Assembly (NCBI RefSeq): GCF_008520305.1
Contig: NZ_ML703263.1
Location: 400,100 to 464,099 of the forward strand
Length of the DNA: 64,000 nucleotides
Source of the DNA: Mesorhizobium sp. SARCC-RB16n
GTDB lineage: Bacteria; Pseudomonadota; Alphaproteobacteria; Rhizobiales; Rhizobiaceae
Direction: 5' to 3'
Of the stretch, positions 22,931 to 49,664 are shown one piece after another (within the stretch, counting starts at the first letter, position 1; each line of letters starts with the position of its first letter). The position numbers were made by a program, and so were the translations under genes. The notes below the pieces were generated by a model that searched no databases, had not been told where the DNA came from, and was given only the letters and a program-made list of their open reading frames with translations.

Positions 22931-22945
22931 TTTCATCCTATGAAA
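22931..22945. promoter_or_regulatory. Palindrome TTTCAT-CCT-ATGAAA upstream of the betaine/TMAO importer
   Basis: A perfect 6-bp inverted repeat with a 3-base centre directly follows an A/T-rich TATATATAA stretch (22922-22930). It is the only structured element I see in the 422-base gap 22843-23264, which has no gene I can support. It belongs to the TTTCA...TGAAA group of elements found before most methylated-amine genes, but with a 5-base rather than 6-base spacer. It is 320 bases from the tmoX start. Confidence 0.5.
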
Positions 22946-23264
22946 CGGCGCTGGCGGGACGGGGCTTGCCGGGCCTATAGCCGAAAGCATGGGATCTTGA
23001 TGGCTCGCACCTTGCAGGGCGCCGAAGGACTGGCATTTGATCCGCGGATGATCGCTATCGCGGCGATCCACCGGCCATGAGACTGGCCGCCTCGGCAGCA
23101 TCCGTCCGTCATCATCGAAATCGAGTATCATCGCGCCTGCGCCGGCCTTGCCGGCGACATGGCGACAATGGCCTTGCGCAACAGCCAGTCTTTCCAACAC
23201 AATCAAGAAAAGACGCAAGAAGGGAACGACCGATAACCGTCACAGCTTGAAGGAGAACCAAGCA

Positions 23265-24239
23265 ATGCCATTTCGCAGTGTGATTTCGAAATTCTCAATG
23301 GGAGCTTTTGTATTTGCCGCGGCAAGTGTCCTGACGCCAACAGCGCAGGCAGCGGCACCGGAATCCAACGACCCGATCAAGATCGCGCTGTTCGACTGGA
23401 CCAGCGTCAATCTCAACGCCAAGATCCTCGGCGGCATCCTGGCAAAGCTCGGCTATACCGTCGAATATCCGACCGCGGACTACCTCTCCAGCCTGACCAC
23501 CGGCCTCACGAACGGCGATCTCGACGTCGGCCTGGAGTTCTGGGACACGACGGCGGGCGAAGCCATGAAAGCATCGGATGCGACGGGCCAGACCGAACGG
23601 CTCGGCAAGCTCGGCCCGAAGGCCAAGGAAGAGTGGTGGTTTCCCGAATATATGAAGGAAAAGTGCCCGACCTTGCCGGACTGGCACGCGATGCTCGACG
23701 CCACCTGCGCGGCATCGTTCTCGACCGCCGAGACGGCGCCGAAGGGACGTTATCTCGGTGGCCCGGTGACCTGGGAAGGGTTTGACGACGAACGCGTCGC
23801 GGCCCTGAAACTGCCTTTCACGGTCATCCATGCCGGCACAGATGCGGCGATGTTCGCCGAACTCGATTCAGCCTATCAGCGCAAGGCGCCGATCATGCTG
23901 TGGATCTACTCGCCGCATTGGGCGCCTGCAAAATACAAGGGCGAATGGGTGCAATTCCCCGAATACACGCCTGAGTGCTACAACGACCCGAAATGGGGCG
24001 TGAACCCGGACGCCAAATACGACTGCGGCAAGCCGCATGGCGAGATCTGGAAATACTCCTGGAACGGCATGAAGGACAAATGGCCGGTCGCCTACAAGGT
24101 GGCCAAGGCCTACACGATCGACACCGACGAGTTGAACAAGATGAGCGGTGAGATCGACCTCGACGGCAAGACACCGGAAGACGTCGCCGCCGCCTGGATC
24201 GCCGCGCACGAGGCCGACTGGAAAGCCTGGGCGAAGTGA
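23265..24239 (+). CDS. tmoX: Betaine/TMAO-type ABC substrate-binding protein (TmoX/ProX family)
   Basis: A 324-residue periplasmic protein with a signal peptide ending at AQAAA (about residue 27) and an OpuAC-type fold. The many Trp and Tyr residues (FDWTS, LEFWD, EEWWFPEY, DWHAM) are what an aromatic cage for a quaternary amine or N-oxide needs. The order LPDW..CAA.F.T...KGR.L.GP..W parallels the TMAO-binding TmoX of marine rhodobacters as I recall it. The start is ATG 23265 with AGGAG 9 bases upstream. It is followed by a palindromic hairpin, the ATPase and the permease. Its position beside tmm supports TMAO or a methylated amine; choline or glycine betaine remain possible. Confidence 0.78.
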   Translation: MPFRSVISKFSMGAFVFAAASVLTPTAQAAAPESNDPIKIALFDWTSVNLNAKILGGILAKLGYTVEYPTADYLSSLTTGLTNGDLDVGLEFWDTTAGEAMKASDATGQTERLGKLGPKAKEEWWFPEYMKEKCPTLPDWHAMLDATCAASFSTAETAPKGRYLGGPVTWEGFDDERVAALKLPFTVIHAGTDAAMFAELDSAYQRKAPIMLWIYSPHWAPAKYKGEWVQFPEYTPECYNDPKWGVNPDAKYDCGKPHGEIWKYSWNGMKDKWPVAYKVAKAYTIDTDELNKMSGEIDLDGKTPEDVAAAWIAAHEADWKAWAK

Positions 24240-24262
24240 TCGCTCCGACTGGAAAAGGGAGG

Positions 24263-24282
24263 CCCGGCTGGTACCAGCCGGG
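24263..24282 (+). other. Intercistronic hairpin between tmoX and tmoV
   Basis: A 20-bp perfect palindrome (CCCGGCTGGT then its complement) lies in the 76-base gap between the binding-protein and ATPase genes. No T run follows. It fits partial termination or mRNA protection that keeps binding-protein levels above those of the membrane components. Confidence 0.6.
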
Positions 24283-24315
24283 TCTCAATTCCTGGTATTC
24301 CAGAAGGACGACTGA

Positions 24316-25389
24316 ATGACGGAAACTATGGAACAGGCATCGAATGCGATGGGAAAAGATCCCCGTCCGATAAAACTTGCCTGCCGCAATGTCTGGAAAC
24401 TGTTTGGGGCAAACGCCGCCAATTTCATCCGCGAGCGCGACGGCAAGGCCAGCACGGCCGACATAGCCGCGGCCGGGCTGGTCGGCGCGGTGCGCGCCGT
24501 CGATCTGGAGATCCGGCAGGGCGAGATCTTTATCATCATGGGCCTGTCAGGATCCGGCAAGTCGACGCTGGTGCGCTGCATGTCGCGGCTGGTCGAACCG
24601 ACACATGGCAAGGTGGAATTCGAAGGCAAGGACCTGCTCAAGATTTCCGATGCCGCGCTGATAGAACTCAGGCGCCACCGCATGGGCATGGTGTTCCAGA
24701 ACTTTGCCCTGCTGCCGCATCTCAACGTGCTCGATAACATCGCCTTCCCGCTCAGCATCCAGGGCCAGGATCGTTCGACACGTGAGGCGCGCGCCCGGGA
24801 AGTCATCGAACTCGTCGGCCTGCGTGGGCGCGAGCATTTCTATCCGCGCGAATTGTCCGGCGGCCAGCAGCAGCGTGTCGGCATCGCACGCAGTCTCGCC
24901 ACCAAGCCGGAGATCTGGTTCCTCGACGAGCCGTTCTCTGCGTTGGACCCATTGATCCGTCGCGAAATGCAGGACGAGCTGATGCGGCTGCAGACCATGC
25001 TGCACAAGACCATCGTCTTCATCACCCATGATTTCGACGAGGCGATAAGGCTCGCCGACCGCATCGCCATCATGAAGGACGGCGAGGTCATCCAGATCGG
25101 CACGCCGGAGCAACTCGTAGTCAATCCCGCGACCGACTATGTCGCCGAGTTCACCCGCGATGTCGACCGCGCCAAGGTGATTTCGGCGCGCAGCCTGATG
25201 CGCGCCTGCGACGGCGCCGAGCACGGCGGCACGGTGGCGCCGGAAGCCAAGATTGCGAGTTTCTCGGCCAGCATCGTTTCAGCCGGCAAGCCGTTTGCGG
25301 TGATCAACGGCACCGGCAAGCCGATCGGCGAAGTGACGCCGCAAGCGGTGATCGATCTGCTGGCCGGCATCGAACGAGCCGGCGCATGA
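24316..25389 (+). CDS. tmoV: Betaine/TMAO-type ABC transporter ATPase (ProV/TmoV family)
   Basis: A 357-residue ATPase with the ProV-specific N-terminal extension (CRNVWKLFGANAANFI), Walker A GLSGSGKST (about 76-84), the QNFALLPH Q-loop, signature LSGGQQQRVGIARSLA and Walker B IWFLDEPFSALDP. The C-terminal 90 residues are a weak CBS-like regulatory region. It overlaps the permease by ATGA. With the neighbours it forms a quaternary-amine importer; the assignment to TMAO rests on context. Confidence 0.85.
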   Translation: MTETMEQASNAMGKDPRPIKLACRNVWKLFGANAANFIRERDGKASTADIAAAGLVGAVRAVDLEIRQGEIFIIMGLSGSGKSTLVRCMSRLVEPTHGKVEFEGKDLLKISDAALIELRRHRMGMVFQNFALLPHLNVLDNIAFPLSIQGQDRSTREARAREVIELVGLRGREHFYPRELSGGQQQRVGIARSLATKPEIWFLDEPFSALDPLIRREMQDELMRLQTMLHKTIVFITHDFDEAIRLADRIAIMKDGEVIQIGTPEQLVVNPATDYVAEFTRDVDRAKVISARSLMRACDGAEHGGTVAPEAKIASFSASIVSAGKPFAVINGTGKPIGEVTPQAVIDLLAGIERAGA

Positions 25390-27365
25390 CGGTAACGGCA
25401 AGGGCCAGCCGGGCAAGGCCGCCGATTCAACGGTGGCTGGTGATCTGGGTGCTCGCGCTTGCCGTCGTGCTGGTGGTGTTCCTGCTGCAGGAAAGGCTGC
25501 CATGGGCCGTCAACTATCCTGCCGAGGCGGTCGTCCCCGTCGCAGACTGGGTCAGCGCATTGATGGGCTGGATCAAGTCGAACCTGTCCTGGTTGACCCG
25601 CTCTATCACGGCGGTGCTCAGCGTGCCGCTCGACTTCGCCCTCAATCTCTTGGCCAAGAATTTCAAGTTCGGCCATGGCGCCGACGCTTTCGTGCTGCCG
25701 CGCCTGTCCTGGGTTGGCGTCTGCGCGGCGGCCTTCCTTGCCGGCTATTCGGCCGGTGGCAGAAAACTCGGCATGCTGGTCGGGGGCTGTTTCCTCTACA
25801 TCGCGCTGTTCGGCCAATGGACCAGCGCCATGCTGACATTGGCGCTGATCTCGATCGCGGTGCCGTTTTGCATTCTCACCGGGCTGTTCGCCGGCATCTG
25901 GGCCTGGCGCAAGCCGCGGGCGGAGCGGCTGGTGGTCTCCCCGGCGCTTGACCTGATGCAGACCATCCCGACCTTCGCCTATCTCATCCCGATGCTGCTC
26001 CTGTTCGGCAATAGCCCGGTCTCGGCGATGATCGCCACCGCCATCTTCGCCACCCCGCCGATGGTGCGAGCAACGATGCTCGGGCTGTCGCGCGTGCCCT
26101 TGGAGATCGGCGAGTTCAGCGACATGGCCGGCTGCACCGCACGGCAGAAGCTGTGGCGCGTGCTGCTGCCCTCGGCCCGACCGACGCTGATGGTCGGCGT
26201 CAACCAGGTGATCATGCTGGCGCTCAACATGGTGATCATCGCCTCTATGATCGGCGCCGGCGGGCTAGGCTACGATGTGCTGCTCGCATTGCGCGCGCTG
26301 AAGGTCGGCGAAGCGATGGAAGCCGGTCTTGCCATCGTTGCACTCGCCATCGCGCTCGACCGGCTGAGCCAGGCCATTGCCCACAAGCAGGCAAAGGGCA
26401 ATGTCCACGGGTCCGCGAGCCCGGGCTTCTGGCGGCGCTACCCCAATCTGACGCTGGCCATTGTGATTCTTGTGGTCACCACGCTGCTTGGCGTGTTCGT
26501 GCCGGCCTTCGCGGCCGTGCCGAAGGCGATCACCTTCACCACCGCGCCATTGTGGAAAGCGGCGGTGAACTGGGTGACGATCAACTTCTTCGACATCATC
26601 GAAGCGTTTCGCGTGGCGCTGATCCTCAATGTACTCAACCCGCTGCGCGCCTTCTGCGAGGGATTTCCGTGGCTGGGCGCGGTGTTCCTGCTCGGCCTTG
26701 CCGGCTACCAGCTCTCAGGTTTGCGGCTGGCCGCACTTGTCGCGGGACTCACCGCCTTCTGCGCCATCACAGGCCTTTGGGAAAAGACCATGGCGACGGT
26801 CTATCTCTGCGGCATCTCGGCCTTCATAGCCTGCCTGATCGGCATTCCGATCGGCCTTGCGGCGGCGCGCAGCGACCGTTTCGAAAAGATCGTCACGCCT
26901 GTCATCGACACGCTGCAGGTGCTGCCGTCCTTCTGCTTCATCATTCCCGTGGTGATGCTGTTCCGTGTCGGCGACGTCACCGCGATGATCGCCACGGTCG
27001 CCTTCGCCGTGGTGCCGGCAATCCGCTACACCAATCACGGCATCCGGCAGGTGCCGCCGGCGCTGATCGAGGCGGCAAAGGTTTCGGGCTGCACCCCGCG
27101 CCAGACATTTTTCCGGGTGCAGTTGGCGCTGGCGCTGCCGGAGATCATGCTCGGTGTGAACCAGACCATCCTGATGGCGCTGGCGATGATCATCATCTGC
27201 GCCATGGTCGGCACCCGCGATCTCGGCCAGGAAGTGTTCATCGCGCTGTCGAAAGCCGATTCCGGCCGCGGTATCGTCGCGGGCCTGGCCATCGCTTTCA
27301 TCGGCATCGTCGCCGACCGGCTGTTCAATGCCTGGACGGCGAAGGCGCGGGCAAGGCTCGGATAG
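25386..27365 (+). CDS. tmoW: Betaine/TMAO-type ABC permease with two fused permease domains (ProW/TmoW family)
   Basis: A 659-residue membrane protein carrying two consecutive ProW-type permease domains. Each has the characteristic D/F-stretch (LDLMQTIPTFAYLIPMLLLF and IDTLQVLPSFCFIIPVVMLF) and the ATPase-contact loop (VPLEIGEFSDMAGCTARQKLWRV... and VPPALIEAAKVSGCTPRQTFFRV). Most ProW proteins have one such domain and work as homodimers; here one chain supplies both halves. Long fused permeases are known from choline and TMAO importers. It starts inside the ATPase stop (ATGA) and its 3' end faces tmm, 19 bases away. Confidence 0.88.
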   Translation: MTVTARASRARPPIQRWLVIWVLALAVVLVVFLLQERLPWAVNYPAEAVVPVADWVSALMGWIKSNLSWLTRSITAVLSVPLDFALNLLAKNFKFGHGADAFVLPRLSWVGVCAAAFLAGYSAGGRKLGMLVGGCFLYIALFGQWTSAMLTLALISIAVPFCILTGLFAGIWAWRKPRAERLVVSPALDLMQTIPTFAYLIPMLLLFGNSPVSAMIATAIFATPPMVRATMLGLSRVPLEIGEFSDMAGCTARQKLWRVLLPSARPTLMVGVNQVIMLALNMVIIASMIGAGGLGYDVLLALRALKVGEAMEAGLAIVALAIALDRLSQAIAHKQAKGNVHGSASPGFWRRYPNLTLAIVILVVTTLLGVFVPAFAAVPKAITFTTAPLWKAAVNWVTINFFDIIEAFRVALILNVLNPLRAFCEGFPWLGAVFLLGLAGYQLSGLRLAALVAGLTAFCAITGLWEKTMATVYLCGISAFIACLIGIPIGLAAARSDRFEKIVTPVIDTLQVLPSFCFIIPVVMLFRVGDVTAMIATVAFAVVPAIRYTNHGIRQVPPALIEAAKVSGCTPRQTFFRVQLALALPEIMLGVNQTILMALAMIIICAMVGTRDLGQEVFIALSKADSGRGIVAGLAIAFIGIVADRLFNAWTAKARARLG

Positions 27366-27384: not shown

Positions 27385-28743
27385 CTACTCGGCCGCGACG
27401 CCCTTCACCTCAAGGTAACTCTCCATCGAATCGTCCAGCGCCTGTAGCCAGGGCGTGTGGTGTAGCGGCGCCATGGTGCCGGTCATCAGCGAGCGGTAGG
27501 CGTGGTCGCGGAAGCTCATGATGTCTTCCGCCTTGTGATGCTCCCACTCCATGAAGGTCTGGTTGACCGCTTCGACGTCGAACCCGGGATAGTCGGTCTG
27601 GTCCATCAATTCCTTGGTGTAGTCGCCCTGGAACCAGATCATCTGCTCGGCGTCCTCGAGGGTCTCCTCGCGGGCGCGCCATTTGGCGCCATGCGCCGCC
27701 ATCGCCTCGGCGGAGGGCAGCTTGATGCGGCCCATGATGACGTCGCGCGCGAACCAGGCCTGCGCGTCGAACATGTTGAAAGTATAGAACTGGTCCTGCA
27801 TGCCGATGTAGGACAGCTTGGGGTTCTTCTCCCAGACTACGCCCTCGTAGAGCGAGTCCGGCCACATGCGATTGGCGGTCTTGAGCTTGAGATCGTCGGT
27901 GAGGAAAGGGAAGGAATGGAGATAGCCGGTGCACAGAATGATGGCATCGACATCCTTGGTCGTGCCATCCTTGAAATGGGCCGTCTTGCCGACGACCTTC
28001 TGCAGCAGTGGCACTTCCTTCCAGTTCTCCGGCCATTTGAAACCCATCGGCTTCGAGCGGTAGCTGGAGGTGATCGATTTGGCGCCGTATTTGTAGCATT
28101 GCGAGCCGATGTCCTCGGCCGAATAGGAGCGGCCGATGATCAGGATGTCCTTGCCCTTGAACTCCATCGCGTCGCGGAAATCGTGGCTGTGCAGGATGCG
28201 GCCGTTGAAGGTCGAGAAGCCCTCGAAATAGGGCACGTTAGGCACCGAGAAGTGCCCGGAGGCGACGACGACATTGTCGAACTCTTCCGAATAGGTCACG
28301 TCGTTGGTGCGGTCATGCGCGGTGACGGTGAATTTCTTCGTCTCGTCGGAGAAGGTGACCATGCGCACCGGGCTGTTGAAGCGCACCCATTTGCGCAGGC
28401 CCGACTTCTCGACGCGGCCCTTGATGTAGTCCCACAGTACGGCGCGTGGCGGATAGGAGCCGATCGGCCGGCCGAAATGCTCCTCGAACGTGTAGTCGGC
28501 GAATTCGAGGCATTCCTTCGGCCCGTTCGACCAGAGGTAGCGGTACATCGAGCCGTGCACCGGATCGCCATGTTCGTCGAGGCCCGTGCGCCAGGTGTAG
28601 TTCCACAGGCCGCCCCAGTCCGACTGCTTTTCGAAGCAGACGATTTCGGGAATCTCGGCGCCCTTGTCGGCTGCCGACTTGAAGGCCCTGAGCTGTGCCA
28701 GACCGGACGGTCCGGCCCCGATGACGGCAACGCGAGTTTTCAT
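27385..28743 (-). CDS. tmm: Trimethylamine monooxygenase (flavin-containing monooxygenase)
   Basis: A 452-residue class B flavoprotein that oxidises trimethylamine to TMAO with NADPH and oxygen. The start is ATG 28741-28743 with GGAGG 7 bases upstream. Visible motifs are the FAD GAGPSG (residues 9-14), the FMO fingerprint [11 protein letters not shown] (about 178-188) and the NADPH-binding GRSYSAED (about 204-211). Blocks such as [19 protein letters not shown] and [12 protein letters not shown] are near-identical to bacterial Tmm sequences I recall, which separates it from Baeyer-Villiger enzymes. It is divergent from the XRE-cupin regulator; an operator-like element lies 41-56 bases upstream. 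Confidence 0.9.
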
Positions 28744-28783
28744 TTCCGGGCCTCCATTTTTTTGATTTCCCCAGCGAAACAAA

Positions 28784-28799
28784 TTTCACTGACAGGACA
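28784..28799. promoter_or_regulatory. TTTCA-N6-GGACA element between tmm and the XRE-cupin regulator
   Basis: TTTCA-CTGACA-GGACA, preceded by AA(A/T), is the tmm copy of the imperfect inverted repeat seen before several units of this island. AATTTCA-TG-CAGG here is shared almost base for base with the dmm element at 33672. It lies 41 bases upstream of tmm. Regulator binding is inferred from recurrence. Confidence 0.5.
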
Positions 28800-28962
28800 G
28801 TAATTGGCCCTTCGGTGCTGTCAACAACCAACTGCGTGAACGGCATTTGCGCGCGATGGATTCCTGGCGAAAAACCAGCAGCCAATGCGATCGCCGAGCC
28901 GGCCTATGCGATGTAAGATCGCTTGCCGTCGCGGTTGCGCTGTTGTATCGGCACCTGACATG

Positions 28963-28977
28963 TTCACCGTAGGTGAA
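28963..28977. promoter_or_regulatory. 15-bp palindrome TTCACC-GTA-GGTGAA before the XRE-cupin gene
   Basis: A perfect inverted repeat with 6-bp arms ends 26 bases before the regulator's ATG. It has the same TTCA...TGAA outline as the other elements in the island but with a 7-base spacer. Its position suits autoregulation by the XRE-cupin protein. Confidence 0.5.
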
Positions 28978-29003: not shown

Positions 29004-29723
29004 ATGGCGAAGACAATTTCCGATCCCAAGGCCGGCCCCGCTGGCGCCAAGCCAAAGCCGCAGCTGAAGGTCTCGGCCGATGGAAAGACCATCCGGGCGC
29101 CGCTGACGCAGAACCCGCACGCCATTCGCGACACCCGCGAAAAAGTGCTGGAGGTCGCGATCGGCCGCGAGGTGCGGGCGTTCCGCAAGAAGCTCGGCAT
29201 CACCGTCGCCGATCTCGCGGTCGCCACCGACATTTCGCTGGGCATGCTGTCGAAGATCGAGAACGGCATCACCTCACCGTCGCTCACCACCTTGCAGGCA
29301 CTGTCGCGGGCGCTGGGTGTTCCCGTCACTGCCTTCTTCCGCCGTTTCGAGGAAGAACGCAGCGCCGTCTTCGTCAAGGCAGGCCAGGGCCTCGATGTCG
29401 AACGCCGCGGCACGCGCGCCGGCCACCAGTACAACCTGCTCGGCCATATCGGTTCCAACACCAGCGGTGTCGTCGTCGAGCCCTATTTGATCACGCTGAC
29501 CGAAGATTCCGACGTGTTCCCGACCTTCCAGCATGAGGGCATGGAGTTCCTGTACATGCTCGAAGGCGAGGTCGTTTACCGGCACGGCAGTAATCTCTAC
29601 CCGATGAAGCCCGGCGACAGCCTGTTCTTCGACGCCGATGCGCCGCATGGGCCGGAGCAACTGACAAAACTGCCGATGCGCTATTTGTCGATTATCTGCT
29701 ATCCGCAGAACAGCGCGGGTTGA
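29004..29723 (+). CDS. XRE-family regulator with C-terminal cupin domain
   Basis: A 239-residue protein with an unusual 50-residue Lys/Pro-rich N-terminal extension and an XRE helix-turn-helix at about residues 53-108 (FRKKLGITVADLAVATDISLGMLSKIENG). The cupin sensor lies at about 155-230 (HEGMEFLYMLEGEVVYRHG..Y.MKPGDSLFFDADAPHGP). Relatives control polyamine, betaine and amino-acid catabolism. It is divergent from tmm and convergent with dmmC, and is the only regulator inside the 23-51 kb methylated-amine region. It is therefore the best candidate to bind the recurring TTTCA-type elements. Confidence 0.9.
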   Translation: MAKTISDPKAGPAGAKPKPQLKVSADGKTIRAPLTQNPHAIRDTREKVLEVAIGREVRAFRKKLGITVADLAVATDISLGMLSKIENGITSPSLTTLQALSRALGVPVTAFFRRFEEERSAVFVKAGQGLDVERRGTRAGHQYNLLGHIGSNTSGVVVEPYLITLTEDSDVFPTFQHEGMEFLYMLEGEVVYRHGSNLYPMKPGDSLFFDADAPHGPEQLTKLPMRYLSIICYPQNSAG

Positions 29724-30811: not shown

Positions 30812-30820
30812 GATTTCCTC

Positions 30821-31786
30821 CTACCGTTCCAGCACCAGCGACCGGCCTTCGAAGCGCGAGACGCACGGCATGATCTTCCTGCCGGAACGGTGCTCTTCCG
30901 CGCTCAGCCAATGGTCGTTGTGGATGAACTTGCCGTCACACGAGATGACGTTGGTCTCGCATTGACCGCAGACGCCGCCACGGCAGAGATAGGGCGGATC
31001 GACGCCGGCTGCCTCGATGGCTTCCAGCAGGCTCTGCTGCTCGCCAACGCGGATGGTCTTGCCGCTGACGGCAAGTGTCACTTCGAATGGCAGACCGGGC
31101 TGGGGCGCCGCGAAATGCTCGAAATGCACGGTTTCCGGCGGCCAGCCGAGCGCGGCGGCGCGGTCGCGCACCCAGTTGATCATGCCGGCAGGGCCGCAGA
31201 CATAGAGATGCGTGCCGAGCGGTTGCGAGGACAAGAGCCGGTCGAGATCGATGCGCTCCTCACGGTCATCGTGATAGAGCCTGACGCGACGGCCGTAGCG
31301 TTCGCTCAGCACATCGGCATAGGTGCCGAGCGAAGCGGTGCGGCAGGTGTAGTGCAGTTCGAAATTGCCGCCCTCCCCCGCCAGTTGCGCGGTCTGCGCC
31401 ATGAACGGCGTTATGCCGATGCCGCCAGCAAGCATCAGGTGCTTTTTGGCGCGCAGGTCGAGTGAGAACAGATTGACCGGATAGCTCACCACCATCTCCA
31501 GCCCCGGCCGGACCTGGTTGTGCATGAACAGCGAGCCGCCACGGCCGACATCGTCGCGCCGCACCGAGATCGTATATTCGCGCGTGTCGAGCGGCGAGCC
31601 CATCAGCGAATAGGGATTGAGCCTTGTGCGCTCGCCATCGCGCATCTCGACCACGACATGGGCGCCGCCGGAAAAGGTCGGCAACAGCCCGCCGTCACGC
31701 CGGCGGAAATGGAAGCGAGTGACCAGGTCGTTGACCGTGACGACATCGCTGACGACGACGTCGAGCTTGGTGGTGCCGGTGCTCAT
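30821..31786 (-). CDS. dmmB: Dimethylamine monooxygenase reductase, PDR/VanB-type ferredoxin-reductase
   Basis: A 321-residue protein with a flavin-binding barrel (RLNPYSLMGSP), an NAD-binding domain (LMLAGGIGITPFMAQ; YVCGPAGMINWV) and a C-terminal plant-type 2Fe-2S domain. The cluster ligands are visible as CRGGVCGQC plus a later Cys in KIMPCVS. It passes NAD(P)H electrons to the heme component. The ATG overlaps the dmmA stop as ATGA, and dmmC follows after 9 bases. The family is certain; its role in dimethylamine oxidation rests on the operon. Confidence 0.85.
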   Translation of the reverse strand: MSTGTTKLDVVVSDVVTVNDLVTRFHFRRRDGGLLPTFSGGAHVVVEMRDGERTRLNPYSLMGSPLDTREYTISVRRDDVGRGGSLFMHNQVRPGLEMVVSYPVNLFSLDLRAKKHLMLAGGIGITPFMAQTAQLAGEGGNFELHYTCRTASLGTYADVLSERYGRRVRLYHDDREERIDLDRLLSSQPLGTHLYVCGPAGMINWVRDRAAALGWPPETVHFEHFAAPQPGLPFEVTLAVSGKTIRVGEQQSLLEAIEAAGVDPPYLCRGGVCGQCETNVISCDGKFIHNDHWLSAEEHRSGRKIMPCVSRFEGRSLVLER

Positions 31787-40233: not shown

Positions 40234-40265
40234 AACACATCCAAAGACATAAGCGAGGAACTATA

Positions 40266-41664: not shown

Positions 41665-42918
41665 ATGAAATACTCGATCTTCTCGCTCGCCCGCGCCGCT
41701 CTTTCCGGCCACAAGAACTGGCAACGCACTTGGCGCGACGCCGCCCCGAAGGACCGCTACGATGTGGTGATCATCGGTGGCGGCGGCCATGGGCTCGCCA
41801 CCGCCTGGTTCCTGGCCAGCGAGTTCGGCATCAAAAATGTCGCCGTGCTGGAAAAGGGCTGGATCGGCTCCGGCAATGCTGGCCGCAACACCACCATCAT
41901 CCGCTCCAATTACGGCCTGCCCGGCAATACCGGCTTCTACGAATTGTCGATGAAGTTGTGGGAGCGGATGGAGCAGGATCTCAATTACAATGCGATGGTC
42001 AGCCAGCGCGGCGTCATCAACCTCTACCATTCCGACGCGCAGCGCGACGCCTATGCGCGGCGCGGCAACACCATGCGCATCAACGGCATCGACGCCGAAC
42101 TGCTCGACCTGGCGGCGGTCAAGAAGATGATCCCGTTCCTGAACTTCGACAATGCGCGCTTTCCCGTGCAGGGCGGATTGCTGCAGCGGCGCGGCGGCAC
42201 GGCGCGGCATGATGCCGTGGCCTGGGGCTATGCCCACGCTGCCAGCGAACTTGGCGTCGACATCATCCAGAATTGCGAAGTCACCGGCTTTGTCAGGGAC
42301 GCGAACGGCAAGGTGACCGGCGTCGAGACCTCGCGCGGCAGGATCGGCGCCGGCAAGGTCGGCATGGCGGTGGCCGGCTCCTCGTCGCGGGTCGCTGCAA
42401 TGGCCGGCCTGCGGTTGCCGATCGAAAGCCATGTGCTGCAGGCCTTCGTCTCGGAGGCGATCAAGCCGCTCATCCCCGGCGTCATGACGTTTGGGGCCGG
42501 CCATTTCTATGTCAGCCAATCCGACAAGGGCGGGCTGGTCTTCGGCGGCGACATCGATGGCTACAATTCCTACGCCCAGCGCGGCAATATGCCTGTCATG
42601 GAAGATGTCTGCGAGGGCGGCATGGCACTGATGCCGATGATCGGCCGCGTGCGCCTGTTGCGCCAATGGGGCGGCATCATGGACATGTCGATGGACGGCT
42701 CGCCGATCATCGACAAGACACCGGTGGACGGGCTCTATCTCAATGCCGGCTGGTGCTATGGCGGCTTCAAGGCGACGCCGGGTTCGGGCTTTGTCTTCGC
42801 CCATCTGCTTGCCCGCGACGAATCGCACGAGGAAGCTGCAAGGTTTCGCCTGGACCGATTCCGGACTGGCGCCATGATCGACGAAAAGGGCCAGGGCGCC
42901 CAACCGAACCTGCACTGA
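41665..42918 (+). CDS. mgdA: N-methylglutamate dehydrogenase subunit A, sarcosine-oxidase beta-like (SoxB family)
   Basis: A 417-residue FAD protein with GGGGHG at residues 38-43, the SoxB patch NAGRNTTIIRSNYGLPGNT, and RGGTARHDAVAWGY (His183). In heterotetrameric sarcosine oxidase a His in this neighbourhood holds covalent FMN. It carries the amine-oxidising active site. The gene order B-D-A-G next to gmaS and mgsABC points to N-methylglutamate rather than sarcosine as substrate, although sarcosine oxidase activity is the alternative. No strong ribosome-binding site is seen. Confidence 0.85.
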   Translation: MKYSIFSLARAALSGHKNWQRTWRDAAPKDRYDVVIIGGGGHGLATAWFLASEFGIKNVAVLEKGWIGSGNAGRNTTIIRSNYGLPGNTGFYELSMKLWERMEQDLNYNAMVSQRGVINLYHSDAQRDAYARRGNTMRINGIDAELLDLAAVKKMIPFLNFDNARFPVQGGLLQRRGGTARHDAVAWGYAHAASELGVDIIQNCEVTGFVRDANGKVTGVETSRGRIGAGKVGMAVAGSSSRVAAMAGLRLPIESHVLQAFVSEAIKPLIPGVMTFGAGHFYVSQSDKGGLVFGGDIDGYNSYAQRGNMPVMEDVCEGGMALMPMIGRVRLLRQWGGIMDMSMDGSPIIDKTPVDGLYLNAGWCYGGFKATPGSGFVFAHLLARDESHEEAARFRLDRFRTGAMIDEKGQGAQPNLH

Positions 42919-42928
42919 GGACGGTCAC

Positions 42929-43204
42929 ATGCGCATTGTCTGTCCCTTCTGCGGCGAACGCGAACTCGGCGAATTCACCTATCTCGGCGACGCCAAGCCG
43001 GTGCGGCCGGCACCTGGAGCATCCGAAGACGAGGTCTACGATTACGTCTATCTGCGCGACAACATCGCCGGTGTGATGGATGAGAACTGGTACCATGGCG
43101 GCGGCTGCCGGGCCTGGCTGAAGGTCACTCGCAACACGCTGACGCACGAGATTTCAGCGGTCGAACCGGCGGCGGGTGCCGGGGCCAGGCAGGTTGCGAA
43201 ATGA
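42929..43204 (+). CDS. mgdB: N-methylglutamate dehydrogenase subunit B, sarcosine-oxidase delta-like (SoxD family)
   Basis: A 91-residue zinc-binding subunit. It begins with the CPFCGERELGEF motif, then YVYLRDNIAGVMDENWYHGGGCRAWL, which supplies the His and last Cys ligands. Start ATG 42929 has GAGGA upstream. In the tetramer the delta subunit is structural. The coding region ends abruptly at 43204, and 226 bases of repeat-rich DNA separate it from mgdC. Confidence 0.87.
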   Translation: MRIVCPFCGERELGEFTYLGDAKPVRPAPGASEDEVYDYVYLRDNIAGVMDENWYHGGGCRAWLKVTRNTLTHEISAVEPAAGAGARQVAK

Positions 43205-43250
43205 ATATCTTCTGTCAACTCGGCGTCGCCCCTCACCTGCCTGCCGGCAT

Positions 43251-43375
43251 CCTCTCCCCGTATAGGGACGGGGAGAGGGGTGCTGCCGTCGCCGATTTCG
43301 CCAATCGCCAACGTTGCAAGAAGGGAGCCGGCGTTGCGGCCAGCCCCCTTCTCCCCGTCACTATACGGGGAGAAG
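43251..43375. repeat. Pair of inverted REP-like hairpins between mgdB and mgdC
   Basis: The first hairpin pairs CCTCTCCCCGT (43251-43261) with ACGGGGAGAGG (43268-43278). The second pairs CTTCTCCCCGT (43348-43358) with ACGGGGAGAAG (43365-43375). The reverse complement of the second differs from the first at about three of 28 positions, so the two copies face each other across 69 bases. That is the form of a REP doublet (REPIN) or short MITE. Both hairpins lie in the non-coding gap 43205-43430. Confidence 0.75.
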
Positions 43376-43430
43376 TGCACGGCAGGGCGATGAGGGACGG
43401 CGCAAGCCTTCCGATTGTGAGGCGTGCATC

Positions 43431-46412
43431 GTGACTTCCTTTCAATCCAATCGCCTGGCCAACGGCGGTCTCGTCGACCGCTCCGCGCCGTTCAACTTCC
43501 GCTTCGACGGCAAGAGCTTCTCCGGTTTCAAAGGCGACACGCTTGCCTCGGCATTGGTTGCCAACGGCGTCAAGCTGGTCGGCCGCTCGTTCAAATATCA
43601 CCGCCCGCGCGGCATCCTGACGGCCGGGTCGGAAGAGCCCAACGCACTGGTGGAACTGCGCAGCGGTGCACGGCGCGAGCCGAACACCAAGGCGACGACG
43701 GCAGAGCTCTATGACGGGCTCGTCGCCGCCAGCCAGAACCGTTGGCCGTCGCTCGACTTCGACGTGATGTCGGTCAACCAACTGTTCGCGCCGATCTTCG
43801 TCGCCGGCTTCTACTACAAGACCTTCATGTGGCCGGCGAAGTTCTGGGAGGCGATCTACGAACCGGCGATCCGCCGCGCCGCCGGCCTCGGCCGCGCAGC
43901 GGGCATCGCCGATCCCGACCATTACGACAAGGCTTGGGCGCATTGCGACGTGCTGATCGCCGGATCCGGCCCGACGGGCCTCGCGGCCGCTCTCGCGGCA
44001 GGCCGCAGCGGCGCCCGCGTCCTGTTGTGCGAAGAGGATTTTATCCTCGGCGGGCGTCTGCTTTCGGATGGCGGCACGATCGACGGAATGCCGGCGGCCG
44101 AATGGCTTTCACGGACGCTCGACGAGCTTGTCGCGATGCCTGATGTCCGCATCATGACGCGCACGACGCTGTTCGGCGTCTATGATGGCGGCACCTATGG
44201 CGCGATCGAGCGCGTCAGCGACCACCTGCCCTCGCCGCCGGAGTACCAGGTGCGCCAGCGACTGTGGCGGATCGTGGCCAAGCGCTGCGTCGTCGCGGCA
44301 GGCGCGCTCGAACGGCCAATCGTCTTTGCCGGCAACGACACGCCGGGCGTGATGATGGCGTCCGCGATGCGCAGCTATATCGCACGTTACGCTGCGGCAC
44401 CGGCCAAGCGCATCGCGCTGTTCACCAACAATGAGGACGGATGGCGCACGGTCGAGGCAGCACTCGGCGCCGGGCTGCAGGTTGCGGCCGTGATCGACGC
44501 GCGCGCGGAAATCTCGCCCGAGCACCGCTCGCTTGCCAGCAAGGGCGGCTTTCCCGTTCTGCATGGCTCCGTCAGCGGCATCGATGGTGGCAAGAATGGC
44601 GTGCGCAGGATTTCCGTCTCGCTCACCGGCGGCGCGCGTGCCGAAGTGGAAGCCGACGGACTTGCCGTTTCGGGCGGATGGAACCCGGCGGTCGGGCTCA
44701 CCTCCTATCATCGCGGCCGGCCGAAATGGCGCGACGATATCGCCGCCTTCGTGCCCGATGGCGCGCCTCCGGGAATGGTTGCGGCTGGTGCCGCCAACGG
44801 CGCCTTCGGGCTTGGCGCCTGCCTGCGCGAAGGATTTGCGGCGGGCGCGGCGGCTGCACGTGATGCCGGACATGGCAATGGTTCAGGCTCCACGCCGGTG
44901 GCCGACGACGAGGCGTTTTCGCTCACACCGCTCTGGCATGTTGCCGGCAAGGGTAAAGCCTTCGTCGACCAGCAGCATGATGTCACCGCATCCGATATCG
45001 AGCTGGCGCAGCGCGAAGGTTTTGAATCGGTCGAGCACCTGAAGCGCTACACCACGCTCGGCATGGCGACCGACCAGGGCAAGACCTCGAACGTCGCCGG
45101 CCTCGCCATCATGGCGGTGGTCACTGGCAAGTCCATTCCCGAGACCGGCACGACAATCTACCGGCCACCTTATGTGCCGGTCGCCATCGGCGCCTTCGCC
45201 GGCCATCATCGCGACGAGAATTTTCATGCGACGCGGCTGACGCCGTCGCATCATTGGGCCGTCGAACAGGGCGCGGTGTTCGTCGACACCGGGCTGTGGA
45301 AGCGCGCGCAATGGTATCCGCGCGCCGGCGAGAAGGACTGGCTGGAGTCCGTAACCCGCGAGGTCAAGGCGGTGCGCGGCGGTGTCGGCTTCTGCGATGT
45401 CTCGACACTCGGCAAGATCGACGTGCACGGCGCGGACGCCGGCGCCTTCCTCGACCGCGTCTACATCAACACCTTCTCCAACCTCGCGGTGGGAAAGGCG
45501 CGCTATGGGCTTATGCTGCGCGAGGACGGCATCGTCTACGACGACGGCACGACGTCGCGGCTGGCCGAGGACCACTATTTCCTGACCACCACCACGGCCA
45601 AGGCCGGGCTGGTGATGCAGCATCTCGAATTCTGCCGGCAGGTGTTGTTTCCGGAGCTCGATGTCCAGTTGACGTCGGTCTCCGACCAGTGGGCGCAATT
45701 TTCGATCGCCGGACCCAAAACCCGCGACCTGTTGAAAGAGATCGTCGATCCTTCGGAAGACCTTTCCAACGAGGGTTTTCCCTTCATGGGCGCACGCGAA
45801 GTCGCGTTGCGCGGCGGCGTCAGGGCGCGGCTGTTCCGCATCTCCTTCTCCGGCGAAATGGCGTTCGAGATTTCGGTGCCGGCGCGCTACGGCGAGGCGA
45901 TGGCCCGCAATCTGATGATTGCGGGCAAGCCGTTCGGCGTGACGCCTTACGGCACCGAGGCGCTCGGCGTCATGCGTATCGAAAAGGGTCATGTCGCCGG
46001 ACCGGAACTCAGCGGCACGACCACCGCCGCCGATCTCGGCCTCGGCAAGATGATGTCGACCAAGAAGGATTTCATCGGCCGCGTCATGGCCGGCCGGGAG
46101 GCGCTGGTGGCAGCGGATCGGCAGGTCGTCGTCGGCGTCAAGCCGGTCGACAAGGCACACCGCTTGCGCTCCGGCGCGCATATCATTCCGAAGGGGCAGA
46201 CACCTGGACCCAGCAATGACCAAGGCTATGTCACCTCGGTCTGCTTCTCGCCGACGGTTGATCAGTGGATCGGGCTCGCCCTCGTCGAACGCGGCCGCGA
46301 GCGCATTGGCGAGATCGTGAACGCACATGATCCGCTGCGCGGCGAGGACTACGATGCCGTGATTTGCAATCCCGTCTTCTACGATCCGGATGGAGGGCGC
46401 CAGCGTGGCTGA
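43431..46412 (+). CDS. mgdC: N-methylglutamate dehydrogenase subunit C, sarcosine-oxidase alpha-like (SoxA family)
   Basis: A 993-residue protein with an N-terminal Fer2-type region (DGKSFSGFKGDTLASALVANG), a dinucleotide-binding fold with GSGPTGLAAAL near residues 178-188, and a C-terminal GcvT-like folate domain (about 600-990; VGFCDVSTLGKIDVHG, FSGEMAFEISVP). It binds NAD and tetrahydrofolate and releases the methyl carbon as methylene-folate. I choose GTG 43431, with GAGG 8 bases upstream; the frame opens earlier, but that part runs through the repeat. Length fits the family (about 990). Confidence 0.88.
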   Translation: MTSFQSNRLANGGLVDRSAPFNFRFDGKSFSGFKGDTLASALVANGVKLVGRSFKYHRPRGILTAGSEEPNALVELRSGARREPNTKATTAELYDGLVAASQNRWPSLDFDVMSVNQLFAPIFVAGFYYKTFMWPAKFWEAIYEPAIRRAAGLGRAAGIADPDHYDKAWAHCDVLIAGSGPTGLAAALAAGRSGARVLLCEEDFILGGRLLSDGGTIDGMPAAEWLSRTLDELVAMPDVRIMTRTTLFGVYDGGTYGAIERVSDHLPSPPEYQVRQRLWRIVAKRCVVAAGALERPIVFAGNDTPGVMMASAMRSYIARYAAAPAKRIALFTNNEDGWRTVEAALGAGLQVAAVIDARAEISPEHRSLASKGGFPVLHGSVSGIDGGKNGVRRISVSLTGGARAEVEADGLAVSGGWNPAVGLTSYHRGRPKWRDDIAAFVPDGAPPGMVAAGAANGAFGLGACLREGFAAGAAAARDAGHGNGSGSTPVADDEAFSLTPLWHVAGKGKAFVDQQHDVTASDIELAQREGFESVEHLKRYTTLGMATDQGKTSNVAGLAIMAVVTGKSIPETGTTIYRPPYVPVAIGAFAGHHRDENFHATRLTPSHHWAVEQGAVFVDTGLWKRAQWYPRAGEKDWLESVTREVKAVRGGVGFCDVSTLGKIDVHGADAGAFLDRVYINTFSNLAVGKARYGLMLREDGIVYDDGTTSRLAEDHYFLTTTTAKAGLVMQHLEFCRQVLFPELDVQLTSVSDQWAQFSIAGPKTRDLLKEIVDPSEDLSNEGFPFMGAREVALRGGVRARLFRISFSGEMAFEISVPARYGEAMARNLMIAGKPFGVTPYGTEALGVMRIEKGHVAGPELSGTTTAADLGLGKMMSTKKDFIGRVMAGREALVAADRQVVVGVKPVDKAHRLRSGAHIIPKGQTPGPSNDQGYVTSVCFSPTVDQWIGLALVERGRERIGEIVNAHDPLRGEDYDAVICNPVFYDPDGGRQRG

Positions 46413-47031
46413 GTTTTCGTGGGAAACCCGCAGTCCGCTCGATCGCGCGCTTGTCGGCGGCGCCCACGGTGCGCAAGGCGAAGTCGGCGTGGCGCTGACC
46501 GAGATCCGCAATTTCGACCTCGTCCAGGTTATTGCGCGGCGCGGCAGGGCGCCTGATATGGCGAGCGCCGCTCGTGCGCATTTCGGCGTTGCGGTTCCGG
46601 AAACGCCGAAGGCAGTCCGGGCTTCGGACGCCACGCTGATCTGGTCGGGACCGGACCAGTTCTTCGTCCTGTCGAATGGCGGCAAGCATGGGATGGACGC
46701 GCTCGGCCAGGCGTTTTCGTCCTCAGCTTCGCTGTCGGACCAGTCACATGCGCGGGTGTTGATCAGCATTTCCGGCGACAAGGCGCGCGCCCTGCTCGCC
46801 AAGCTGTCGTCGATCGATCTGTATCCGGCGGCGTTCCCTGTCGGAGCCGCGGCAGCCACCTCGATGGACCACACCAGCGTCATGCTGTGGCGCGGCAATG
46901 ATGCGCCGGACGAACAGGCTGTGTTCAACGTTCTGGTGTTCGCGACCTTCGCCGAAAGCCTGTGGCACACGATGCTGGACTCGGGTGCCGAATATGGTGT
47001 CGAGATCGGGCATTCGGAGGACCTGGCATAG
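46405..47031 (+). CDS. mgdD: N-methylglutamate dehydrogenase subunit D, sarcosine-oxidase gamma-like (SoxG family)
   Basis: A 208-residue protein with the gamma-subunit pattern (SPLDRALVGGAHGA, ALTEIRNFDLVQVIAR, DQSHARVLISISGDKARALLAKLSSIDLYP, FAESLWHTMLDSGAEYGVEI), a shortened GcvT fold. The start at GTG 46405 has GGAGGG 7 bases upstream and overlaps the mgdC stop by 8 bases. It completes the four-subunit dehydrogenase. The next gene, tdm, has its own operator-like element. Confidence 0.83.
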   Translation: MAEFSWETRSPLDRALVGGAHGAQGEVGVALTEIRNFDLVQVIARRGRAPDMASAARAHFGVAVPETPKAVRASDATLIWSGPDQFFVLSNGGKHGMDALGQAFSSSASLSDQSHARVLISISGDKARALLAKLSSIDLYPAAFPVGAAAATSMDHTSVMLWRGNDAPDEQAVFNVLVFATFAESLWHTMLDSGAEYGVEIGHSEDLA

Positions 47032-47093
47032 CTGTGCGCTTCTTCCCTGCCTTGCCAAACTCCGCTCCGCTGCTATTCTTGCTGCTAAAATAA

Positions 47094-47109
47094 TTTTACA
47101 CACAGGCAA
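47094..47109. promoter_or_regulatory. TTTTA-N6-GGCAA element upstream of tdm
   Basis: TTTTA-CACACA-GGCAA sits inside AAATAATTTTA and is followed by ACTTGTTTCTCGAA. The segment 47088-47123 matches the region 33666-33702 before dmmD in roughly 30 of 36 aligned positions by eye, with one gap. It lies 26 bases before the tdm start. Confidence 0.55.
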
Positions 47110-47135
47110 ACTTGTTTCTCGAACCTCGAGTTGAG

Positions 47136-49505
47136 ATGAGCCAGTCGCCCTACCCCGCCGTGACAGCCGGACCGCCCAGGCCAAGCCTGATCCTGCGGCC
47201 CGGCCAGATCGCGCTGCCGGCCGGCGTGGAGCGCTATACCGTACAGGGCAATGGCGCGGTCCTGATCGAGGTCGAGGCCGGCGACACGATCACGGTTCGC
47301 AATGTCGAGGGTGGCCAGGCCTGCGAATTGCTGGCCTGGGACAAGTCGGGCGTCACCGACCCCAGCATTCTCGGCGAAAAATCCAATAGCAATGCCGCCG
47401 GCGTCAAGGCGCTGCTCGCCGAGGGCGACGACAGTCTCGGCACACTGCGCCGCGGACTCGAACGTCGCCAGGTTCAGCTTGACCAGGCCAAGGCGGTGCG
47501 CGTGTTTGGCGGCGCCACTCCGGCCGGTACCGAGCAGGCATTCGCGATAGCGCGCGATGGTGCGATGCTGATTGGCGCGCCCGGCGGACCGATGCTGGTC
47601 GATGGCCACGACACGGCGACGCCACTCAGCGTCATCGTGCGGCGAAACACGATCCGCCTGAAGGCAAAATCCCGGCTTGCCGATCCACTGGCCGATCCGG
47701 TGCTCGATCTGCGCGTCCATTCGGCGACGGCGGAATCCTATTTCGTCAAGGCGGGCGACTATCTGCAGATCATCGATGTCGACGGGCGCCAGTGCACCGA
47801 CTTCCAGTGTTTCTCGGCGCGCAAGCTGGACAAGGGGCTCGACCATCCGCTCGACGTCACGACGACGCGCACGCTGATGGGCGCGAGCTATCCGATGCCC
47901 GGCCTGCATTCGAAATATTATGACCAGGACATGGAGCCGTTGGTCGAGGTGGTGCAGGACACGTGCGGCCGGCACGACGCTTTCGCGCTCGCCTGCGCTG
48001 CCAAATATTACGACGATATCGGCTATCCCGGCCACACCAACTGCTCTGAGAATTTCAACCGTGCGCTGGACGGCAAGGGCGTCAATCCCCGCGCCGGCTG
48101 GATGGCGATCAATTTCTTCTTCAACACGGCGATCGACGCGCATGGCGTCATGGTGTCGGACGAGCCATGGTCGCGGGCCGGCGACTATGTGCTGCTCAGG
48201 GCGCTGACCGACATCGTCTGCGTCTCCTCCGCCTGCCCCGACGACACGACGCCGGCCAATGGCTGGGACCTGACCGACATCCACGTGCGGACCTATTCCG
48301 GCCAGCACAAATTCTCGCGAGCGATCGCCAGACGCATGACGCCCGATTCGGAACCGAAAATGACCCGCGAGACAGCCTTTCACCAGAGCTTTGCCAAGCA
48401 CACGCGCGACTTCGTCGAGTACAGGGGCTATTGGCTGGCCAATTCCTTCGCCAGGGAAGGAGCCATCGCCGAATACTGGGCCTGCCGGCAAGACGCGGTG
48501 ATCATGGACCTGTCGCCGCTGCGCAAATTCGAGGTCACCGGCCCGGATTCGGAAGCGCTGCTGCAATACACGCTGACCCGTGACGTCAAGAAACTCGGCA
48601 TCGGCCAGGTCGTCTACTCCGCCATGTGCTACGAGCATGGCGGCATGATCGACGACGGCACGCTGCTGCGGCTCGGCAAGGATAATTTCCGCTGGGTCGG
48701 CGGCGACGACCTGTCCGGCGAATGGCTGCGCGAGACGGCGACAAAGCTCGGCCTCAACGTGCTGGTGCGCTCGTCCACCGACCAGATGCACAATATCGCC
48801 GTGCAGGGGCCAAAGAGCCGCGACATCTTGAAAGAGGTGATCTGGACTTCACCCTTACAGCCGTCGATCGAGGAACTTGAATGGTTCCGTTTCGCGGTCG
48901 CCCGCATTGGTGGGGGCAATGGCATTCCCGTCGTCGTCTCTCGCACCGGCTACACGGGCGAACTCGGCTACGAGATCTGGTGCCATCCGCGCGACGCCGA
49001 AAAGGTGTTCGACGCGATATGGGCAGCCGGCCAGCCGCACGGACTGAAGCCGATGGGCTTGCAGGCGCTCGACATGGTGCGCATCGAGGCCGGGCTGATC
49101 TTCGCCGGTTACGAATTTTCCGACCAGACCGATCCGTTCGAGGCCGGCATCGGCTTCACCGTGCCGCTCAAGAGCAAGACCGACGATTTCATCGGCCGCG
49201 AGGCGCTGATCCGGCGCAAGGACCATCCGCAGACGAAACTGGTCGGCCTCGACATCGACGGCAATGTCGCCGTCGGCCATGGCGACTGCGTCCATGTCGG
49301 CCGTGCCCAGATCGGCGTCGTCACCTCGGGCATGCGCTCGCCTGTGCTGAGCAAGAACATCGCTCTGGCGCGGCTCGACGTCACCCACGCCGCCATCGGC
49401 ACGGAGGTCGAGATCGGCAAGCTCGACGGCCATGCCAAGCGGCTGCCGGCGCGGGTCGTTGCCTTTGCCCACTACGATCCGCAAAAGACCAAACCACGTT
49501 CCTGA
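47136..49505 (+). CDS. tdm: Trimethylamine-N-oxide demethylase (DUF1989-GcvT fusion)
   Basis: A 789-residue protein with an N-terminal DUF1989 metal domain and a C-terminal GcvT folate domain (about 410-780; VIMDLSPLRKFEVTGPDSEALL, SRTGYTGELGYEIWC). Likely metal cysteines are in RQCTDFQCFSARKL and CVSSACPDD. The same two-domain make-up is known from the methylotroph Tdm, which splits TMAO into dimethylamine and formaldehyde; the folate domain then captures the formaldehyde. The ATG at 47136 has only a weak GAG upstream; TTG 47112 is a less likely alternative because it lies in the operator-like element. A strong hairpin ends the gene. Confidence 0.87.
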   Translation: MSQSPYPAVTAGPPRPSLILRPGQIALPAGVERYTVQGNGAVLIEVEAGDTITVRNVEGGQACELLAWDKSGVTDPSILGEKSNSNAAGVKALLAEGDDSLGTLRRGLERRQVQLDQAKAVRVFGGATPAGTEQAFAIARDGAMLIGAPGGPMLVDGHDTATPLSVIVRRNTIRLKAKSRLADPLADPVLDLRVHSATAESYFVKAGDYLQIIDVDGRQCTDFQCFSARKLDKGLDHPLDVTTTRTLMGASYPMPGLHSKYYDQDMEPLVEVVQDTCGRHDAFALACAAKYYDDIGYPGHTNCSENFNRALDGKGVNPRAGWMAINFFFNTAIDAHGVMVSDEPWSRAGDYVLLRALTDIVCVSSACPDDTTPANGWDLTDIHVRTYSGQHKFSRAIARRMTPDSEPKMTRETAFHQSFAKHTRDFVEYRGYWLANSFAREGAIAEYWACRQDAVIMDLSPLRKFEVTGPDSEALLQYTLTRDVKKLGIGQVVYSAMCYEHGGMIDDGTLLRLGKDNFRWVGGDDLSGEWLRETATKLGLNVLVRSSTDQMHNIAVQGPKSRDILKEVIWTSPLQPSIEELEWFRFAVARIGGGNGIPVVVSRTGYTGELGYEIWCHPRDAEKVFDAIWAAGQPHGLKPMGLQALDMVRIEAGLIFAGYEFSDQTDPFEAGIGFTVPLKSKTDDFIGREALIRRKDHPQTKLVGLDIDGNVAVGHGDCVHVGRAQIGVVTSGMRSPVLSKNIALARLDVTHAAIGTEVEIGKLDGHAKRLPARVVAFAHYDPQKTKPRS

Positions 49506-49524
49506 GCTGCCCTTTTGGGATCAC

Positions 49525-49557
49525 AAAGCCTCCGTCGTCGACGCCGACGGAGGCTTT
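49525..49557 (+). terminator. Terminator after tdm
   Basis: AAAGCCTCCGTCG (49525-49537) pairs perfectly over 13 bp with CGACGGAGGCTTT (49545-49557), with a 7-base loop. The T stretch is short (three), but A/T ends and stem strength fit an intrinsic terminator 20 bases after the tdm stop. Confidence 0.8.
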
Positions 49558-49648
49558 GCCGTTCGCGCGCGTAAGCGTGATGTGCATGGCTTCACAAATC
49601 GCTTGACGTGAAAGCGCGCCGGATCAATCTTCACTCTTAAGAAAAAAA

Positions 49649-49664
49649 TACGACTGAGTGGAAA
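49649..49664. promoter_or_regulatory. TACGA-CTGAGT-GGAAA element upstream of the second APC permease
   Basis: The region TTAAGAAAAAAAT followed by ACTGAGTGGAAA (from 49638) parallels TTATGAAAAAAAT followed by ACTCTCTTGAAA at 33759-33786, although the left half-site is degenerate. It lies about 94 bases before the permease start. It is the weakest member of the element group. Confidence 0.4.

Follow-up and report, generated by a model that had tools for sequence, protein, structure and literature searches.

The promoters of a methylated-amine gene island share an inverted-repeat element that usually consists of two 15-bp palindromes with their centres 20 bp apart, and the XRE-cupin protein encoded within the island very likely binds these sites and controls the genes behind them as a regulon. 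The sites, their pairing, their conservation, the co-occurrence of the regulator gene and, in relatives, the genome-wide concentration of the sites before pathway genes were computed, and this comparison of sequences suggests that the breakdown of trimethylamine and its relatives is under a common switch that has not been described so far. That a recurring inverted repeat may tie the methylated-amine genes into one regulon had been proposed from the letters of this DNA (hereafter the original prediction); genome scans and orthologous promoters support this proposal, with corrections to its consensus, to one of its coordinates and to how far the regulon extends.

The methylated-amine island and its regulator gene

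The window, i.e. the whole 64-kb stretch of DNA analysed, has a GC content of 63% and holds an island composed of tmoXVW, tmm, the XRE-cupin gene, dmmDABC, two small membrane proteins with an APC permease, mgsABC-gmaS, mgdABCD, tdm and tmoP. Curated cutoffs were passed by the trimethylamine monooxygenase (tmm; 27385-28743, minus strand; NF058570), by the DmmA family protein (NF041259, dmmA frame) of the dimethylamine monooxygenase genes dmmDABC (29771-33677, minus strand), whose other names are those of the original prediction, by the type III glutamate-ammonia ligase GmaS (TIGR03105) of mgsABC-gmaS (37275-41573, plus strand), by the TMAO demethylase (tdm; 47112-49505, plus strand; NF053776) and by the TMAO permease (tmoP; 49686-51467, plus strand; NF053774). 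Matches above cutoff were also obtained for mgdABCD (41665-47031, plus strand; TIGR01373 and TIGR01372) and for tmoV and tmoW (TIGR01186 and TIGR03416) of the TMAO ABC transporter genes tmoXVW (23265-27365, plus strand; start of tmoX approximate). For tmoX there was no NCBIfam match at 1e-10, and its name was taken from the original prediction and from its position.

The two small membrane proteins and the APC permease (33842-36129, plus strand; AA_permease for 34726-36129) form a candidate amine uptake system, in which the two small ORFs were without a family match in Pfam or NCBIfam (1e-5). Together with the ethanolamine-permease-like APC protein the small proteins recurred as a conserved unit in other loci (L055, L057, L062, L093, L103, L175, L194, L196), preceded in several loci by the operator described below, and this unit may take up methylated amines. 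The longest reading frame of dmmD (32421-33677) starts at 33677, within an operator; since homology starts about 32 residues later, the true start of this minus-strand gene probably lies downstream of, that is below, 33677. Outside the island, the last third of the frame 19094-21547 (about 19100-20000, minus strand) matched LysR-type regulators; the frame adjoins opp transporter genes.

The proposed binder (29004-29723, plus strand) has the XRE-cupin architecture, with an N-terminal HTH_3 domain at residues 57-109 (Pfam, 7e-16) and a C-terminal Cupin_2 domain at residues 166-230 (8.4e-14). Structure prediction gave helices at residues 48-112 and strands at residues 130-234 (mean pLDDT 77.7). 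The best PDB fold match of the model was 1y9q, an HTH_3 regulator, and because the TM-scores were low no ligand was inferred from folds. Further XRE-cupin homologues with 44 to 76% identity (L098, L104, L124, L125) had neither mgs nor tmm genes within the 20 kb retrieved, and three of the four were near ABC ATPases distantly like tmoV; the 25.6-bit site before the regulator gene of L098 suggests that XRE-cupin paralogues may run other systems.

Paired palindromes in the promoters of the island

The matrix for the element was learned from the promoters of orthologous genes around regulator homologues and not from the originally predicted sites. The input of the motif search comprised 86 promoters, from which the nearest genus was excluded by the genus labels of the tool; by these labels Mesorhizobium in the wide sense was not wholly excluded. 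The de novo search returned TTTCCTGAnAGTGAAATTTTTT, a better form of the element first described as TTTCA-N6-TGAAA; it is an inverted repeat whose presence goes with that of the XRE-cupin gene. Taken literally and with up to two mismatches, TTTCA-N6-TGAAA occurred 12 times in the window against 9.97 times expected by shuffling, and owing to this lack of excess it was rejected as a description of the element. With the 22-bp matrix, by comparison, the window held 8 matches that scored at least 16 bits, distributed over 6 places, where 0.085 were expected under a first-order Markov background. When the 64 kb were scanned with a symmetrised core of 15 columns, the eight best places were, in order, 49630, 28785, 33673, 22931, 37206, 47095, 33772 and 28963, at a thin margin between the eighth (11.7 bits) and the ninth (42589, inside mgdA; 11.5 bits). 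They are the eight sites of the original prediction, with a shift of 20 bp for one. The inverted repeats listed there are present at the positions given. The mgdABCD gap, for which no copy had been claimed, was absent from the best matches of both the 22-bp matrix and the 15-column core, and upstream of mgdA in relatives 15 of 19 regions were without a match at up to two mismatches, the other 4 having one.

When the core alone was used for scanning, 46 of the 69 promoters had a second palindrome 20 bp from the first (+20, towards the A/T side), and no other offset between -30 and +40, 0 being left out, was found in more than 4. Only 2 of the 15 columns of this second core lay in the matrix that had located the first palindrome. 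A/T-rich DNA does precede the repeats, as the original prediction held, and it is accounted for by the linker and the inner half-site of the second palindrome 20 bp away. A pair matrix of 39 columns, fitted on 132 promoters (some from genomes later scanned with the model R2, see below) and used to locate the sites for R2, had its five best places in the window at tmm/xre, dmmD, tdm, tmoP and mgsA. Exceptions to strict pairing were tmm, with a poor partner at 20 bp, and tmoX, with a single compact palindrome.

The best pair-matrix score in the window (28.0 bits) belonged to the putative tmm/xre operator at 28763-28801, which is composed of a main palindrome at 28785-28799 and a poorer partner to its left, whose core scored -1.1 at the strict 20-bp spacing. 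It overlaps a putative tmm -10 (TACTGT, 28797-28802, minus strand, assigned by eye), 16 bp from a putative -35 (TTGACA, 28819-28824, minus strand), and TTGACA was seen in 8 of the 9 tmm promoters listed. A separate palindrome at 28963-28977 precedes the XRE-cupin gene and may serve autoregulation. In the divergent gap between dmmD and the small membrane proteins (smp1), the putative operator pair at 33651-33689 (main palindrome 33673-33687; 25.4 bits with the pair matrix) was conserved before dmmD in L032, L034, L036, L042 and L044, and a further palindrome at 33772-33786 (core 12.1 bits, pair matrix 13.9) lies before the small membrane proteins. The putative mgsA operator pair at 37184-37222 scored 19.9 bits with the pair matrix, and its gene-proximal palindrome overlaps a possible -35.

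For tdm, the putative operator pair at 47073-47111 (23.2 bits, pair matrix) has a palindrome that follows a putative promoter assigned by eye (TTGCCA-N16-TATTCT, 47052-47079, plus strand); the orthologues L031, L033, L035 and L043 have TATTCT, preceded by TTGCCA in the first three and by TTGCCT in L043. The putative tmoP pair at 49628-49666 reached 21.3 bits with the pair matrix and consists of palindromes at 49630-49644 and 49650-49664 with cores of 17.3 and 7.3 bits. The weak copy originally placed at 49649 corresponds to the second and weaker of these two palindromes. The putative compact tmoX operator at 22931-22945 (core 13.9 bits, pair matrix 9.4) directly follows a TATAAT-like box, and with at most one mismatch it was kept before tmoX in five of the six relatives examined (L032, L034, L038, L039, L049). 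A generic sigma-70 scan gave no promoter in two of the gaps and did not detect the putative tmm -10.

Conservation, co-occurrence and genome-wide distribution

As the original prediction had required, orthologous promoters keep the sites in the tmm/xre gap, in held-out family promoters and in the class-wide mgsA test. For the tmm/xre gap 21 of the 23 fetched loci were aligned (L177 and L193 were left out), and they revealed two conserved islands at both sites, with 85% (28774-28802) and 83% mean identity to the window, separated by a divergent middle with 56%. The xre site was kept in all 21 relatives; the tmm site was present in 18 and absent in the 3 without tmm beside xre. Among promoters held out from training, taken from 26 further family loci, 16 of the 18 from mgsA had the site in the orthologous position (p at most 0.01). 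At the same threshold sites were found in 7/25 promoters of xre, 2/5 of tdm, 2/3 of tmoP, 2/2 of smp1, 1/5 of tmm and 0/2 of dmmD. The 4 tmm and 2 dmmD genes that lack a site lie behind co-directional dmm genes (L092, L093, L095, L099) and would thus not be expected to have separate promoters. At least 16 bits were reached by 38% of 60 held-out target promoters compared with 4.4% of 181 other promoters, a control made stricter by its inclusion of loci that had been fetched for matches of the single-palindrome model R1.

The survey of the family (199 genomes searched) identified the XRE-cupin gene in 65 genomes (E 1e-30), mgsA in 61 (E 1e-80) and tmm in 33 (E 1e-120). The regulator was present in 60 of the 61 mgsA genomes and in all 33 tmm genomes, with a Fisher value of 1e-43 for mgsA that, like the one given next, is overstated because species are not independent samples. 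In the class survey (308 genomes) mgsA and the regulator were each found in 42 genomes and both in 30. Outside the family the mgsA promoter had a site at shuffle p at most 0.01 in 24 of 28 regulator-positive genomes and in none of 11 regulator-negative ones (Fisher 8e-7), the site falling short of the 0.01 threshold in the other 4 of the 28. This test covered 39 of the 42 mgsA genomes, with G001 (nearest genus) and G491 and G263 (no upstream DNA) set aside, and no promoter from outside the family was used in training its matrix. Three families (f58, f69, f115) hold both regulator-positive and regulator-negative genomes, and the contrast of site and regulator agreed in all three. Among the best 80 of 576 regulator loci, which span Mesorhizobium, Sinorhizobium, Rhizobium, Agrobacterium, Thalassospira, Roseibium, Roseovarius and others, 70 had a sought pathway gene within about 3 kb.

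This co-occurrence bears on whether the sites might belong to another regulator, for example of nitrogen-control or AraC type, with the XRE-cupin gene as a passenger. Such a regulator is conceivable since binding by the XRE-cupin protein is predicted from sequence, since the AraC-type TmaR and the GntR-type TmoR run the same pathway in Ruegeria (available part of PMC13390433), and since one genome (G090, locus L175) has a good site upstream of mgsA and no XRE-cupin gene at E 1e-30; the assembly of G090 is split into about 770 contigs and may for that reason lack the gene. Site presence nevertheless tracks the XRE-cupin gene, also within the three families, and a site precedes the xre gene itself even in the three loci without tmm. 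We consider another regulator improbable, and the XRE-cupin protein, which the original prediction had named as the natural binder, continues to be the likeliest one given its near-constant company with mgsA and tmm and the lack of the site where the gene is absent.

Whole-genome scans were done in relatives. The single-palindrome model R1 placed 14 of 15 matches in four genomes within the island, but the sites it was built from include some of the window and of the loci of these four genomes. It did not separate genomes by regulator content, with 13 matches in 10 of 24 held-out positive genomes versus 13 matches in 4 of 16 negative ones, 10 of the latter from G027; 6 of the 13 matches in positive genomes precede tmoX or are no more than 700 bp from an xre gene. 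As a single palindrome is too short for use on whole genomes, R1 was dropped in favour of the pair model R2. The latter was built from 31 of 50 candidate sites from other genera, hand-picked for a clear pair with most xre-preceding sites omitted; it excludes the window and three nearest-genus genomes, and the scanned positive genomes contributed no site to it. R2 gave 63 matches in 26 of 30 regulator-positive genomes versus 7 in 6 of 30 negative ones; 5 of the 63 repeat a site already counted, read from the opposite strand. For 43 of these 63 matches the start of an xre, fhs or pathway gene was at most 400 bp away, as it was for 17 of the 18 with E below 0.05; the other 20 lay farther from any such anchor gene. 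At most 150 candidates per genome were scored, so that known sites were missed and absence proves little. The concentration of genome-wide hits before methylated-amine genes that was to be expected of a regulon was thus obtained with the pair model, the single palindrome being non-discriminating.

The original prediction had cautioned that A/T-rich patches can mimic such motifs in a GC-rich genome. Chance patches of this kind would agree with the unenriched literal repeat and with the failure of the single-palindrome scan to split positive from negative genomes; the composition-matched shuffles, the held-out promoters, the regulator-negative genomes and the 20-bp pairing of the palindromes argue otherwise, to the point that we regard chance as a vanishingly small prospect.

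The extent of the regulon is widened by fhs (formate-tetrahydrofolate ligase), which followed the best R2 match in each of three nearest-genus genomes, distant from the island. Sites before fhs away from the island were found in G001, G074, G156 and G070, one of which lies outside the nearest genus. At least 20 bits were reached by 6 of 25 fhs promoters in regulator-positive genomes and by 0 of 25 in negative ones (8 versus 1 at shuffle p 0.01) in a test of 50 of the 52 loci, L301 and L323 being skipped for want of upstream DNA. By these scores fhs is a predicted target in some lineages only. The methylated-amine pathway yields methylene-tetrahydrofolate (available part of PMC13390433), which makes a folate enzyme a sensible target. 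In G105 there are two copies of fhs (L280, L300), each 93% identical to the query; the island copy L300 has an operator-like site (13.2 bits) and L280 is without one. A further R2 match (L269, G085:C8:226646) lies before an AraC-type gene resembling, below cutoff, the choline metabolism regulator GbdR, and possibly links betaine and methylamine control.

Predicted mode of control and known systems

We infer that the protein binds the sites, does so as two dimers, represses its targets, regulates its own gene and responds to a ligand. The two dimers would probably sit side by side on the two 15-bp palindromes and on one face of the DNA, the centre spacing of 20 bp being about two helical turns. 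At tmm, tdm, tmoX and smp1 the bound dimers would cover the -10/start region, and at mgsA, as well as at fhs of relatives, a possible -35. Without methylated amines the bound regulator would block RNA polymerase until a metabolite of the methylamine branch in the cupin domain releases it from the DNA. Its site before its own gene would provide for autoregulation. Methylamine, gamma-glutamylmethylamide or N-methylglutamate would be the most likely ligand, a level in the pathway suggested by the tight tie of the regulator to mgs-gmaS rather than to tmm.

Repression is the probable sign of control at tmm, tdm and tmoX. The tmm palindrome covers its putative -10 (TTGACA-N16-TACTGT), and the tdm and tmoX palindromes follow their putative promoter elements; sites in core promoters fit a repressor, like the XRE-cupin proteins of Pseudomonas aeruginosa, for which the available part of PMC7901475 describes inhibitors that recognise palindromic motifs and bind core promoters adjoining their own genes. 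The same protein on the same sites could also activate transcription, be it from some of the promoters or from all of them, a variant compatible with the binding part of our explanation. At mgsA and fhs the pair lies in an activator-like place, upstream of and overlapping a possible -35, the TTGAc contained in the gene-proximal palindrome; behind this TTGAc no clear -10 was found, and 17 bp was no better than other spacings. TmaR of Ruegeria, moreover, activates tdm and downstream genes and mildly represses tmm (available part of PMC13390433). Activation is set against the tmm, tdm and tmoX sites, which cover or directly follow a putative -10, and against the studied members in P. aeruginosa, reported as inhibitors (PMC7901475, same part), and we consider it rather unlikely.

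The predicted repressor shares with PauR, PsdR and ErfA of P. aeruginosa the combination of HTH and cupin and, as far as its predicted sites go, palindromic motifs and a place at promoters and at its own gene (available part of PMC7901475); here, too, the predicted sites lie in core promoters, with hexamers assigned by eye, and beside the regulator gene. PauR controls a multi-locus gamma-glutamylation pathway (same source), and the gmaS product of the present island is a gamma-glutamyl ligase, too. The present regulator differs from the three in its predicted pathway, methylated-amine catabolism, and in operators that are usually pairs at a fixed 20 bp, of which the available part of PMC7901475 makes no mention; the terms "tetramer" and "cooperativ" are likewise absent from that part. 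The fixed double operator is the predicted distinctive feature of the present XRE-cupin system. PuuR of Escherichia coli, an XRE-cupin homologue of PauR, leaves its site on sensing putrescine (PMC7901475, same part). The present protein may work like PauR and PuuR, but identity with PuuR was rejected at 50.8 bits against the curated cutoff of 211 bits for the equivalog (NF007408), and substrate and pathway are different.

In Ruegeria pomeroyi, according to the available part of PMC13390433, TmaR (AraC) and TmoR (GntR) control tmm, tdm, dmm, gmaS-mgs and mgd, TmaR mainly as an activator and TmoR by acting on tmm. The pathway is the same and the protein families are unrelated; identity with TmaR or TmoR was rejected, Pfam at 1e-5 giving only HTH_3, HTH_31, HTH_26 and Cupin_2. 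An XRE-cupin regulator is not described in that part of PMC13390433, and the available part of PMC7574528 marks an XRE gene among the recurrent genes of such clusters and gives no function for it. A description of the regulon was not found in the open-licence literature searched, and an XRE-cupin regulator of methylated amines is not described in the available parts of PMC4653772, PMC8235418, PMC9800807, PMC5023235, PMC4744692, PMC9951944, PMC8153426 and PMC12565409.

A bolder reading, which we put forward tentatively and hold at somewhat less than an even chance, would see in this protein a third, evolutionarily independent master regulator across the Alphaproteobacteria, with double operators and co-operating dimers (20-bp period), which senses the gamma-glutamylmethylamide node and, by control of the distant fhs gene as well, couples the release of methylamine nitrogen to the disposal of one-carbon units via folate. 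In the dissolved organic nitrogen of the sea, methylated amines are an important component (available part of PMC13390433), and soil bacteria carry the same methylated-amine genes. Among the papers found, regulation of the pathway as a whole has been resolved for a single Roseobacter, where regulators of the AraC and GntR types are at work. Our analysis predicts a different switch in many Alphaproteobacteria, together with its DNA code, a target list at the level of promoters and fhs as a target away from the cluster.
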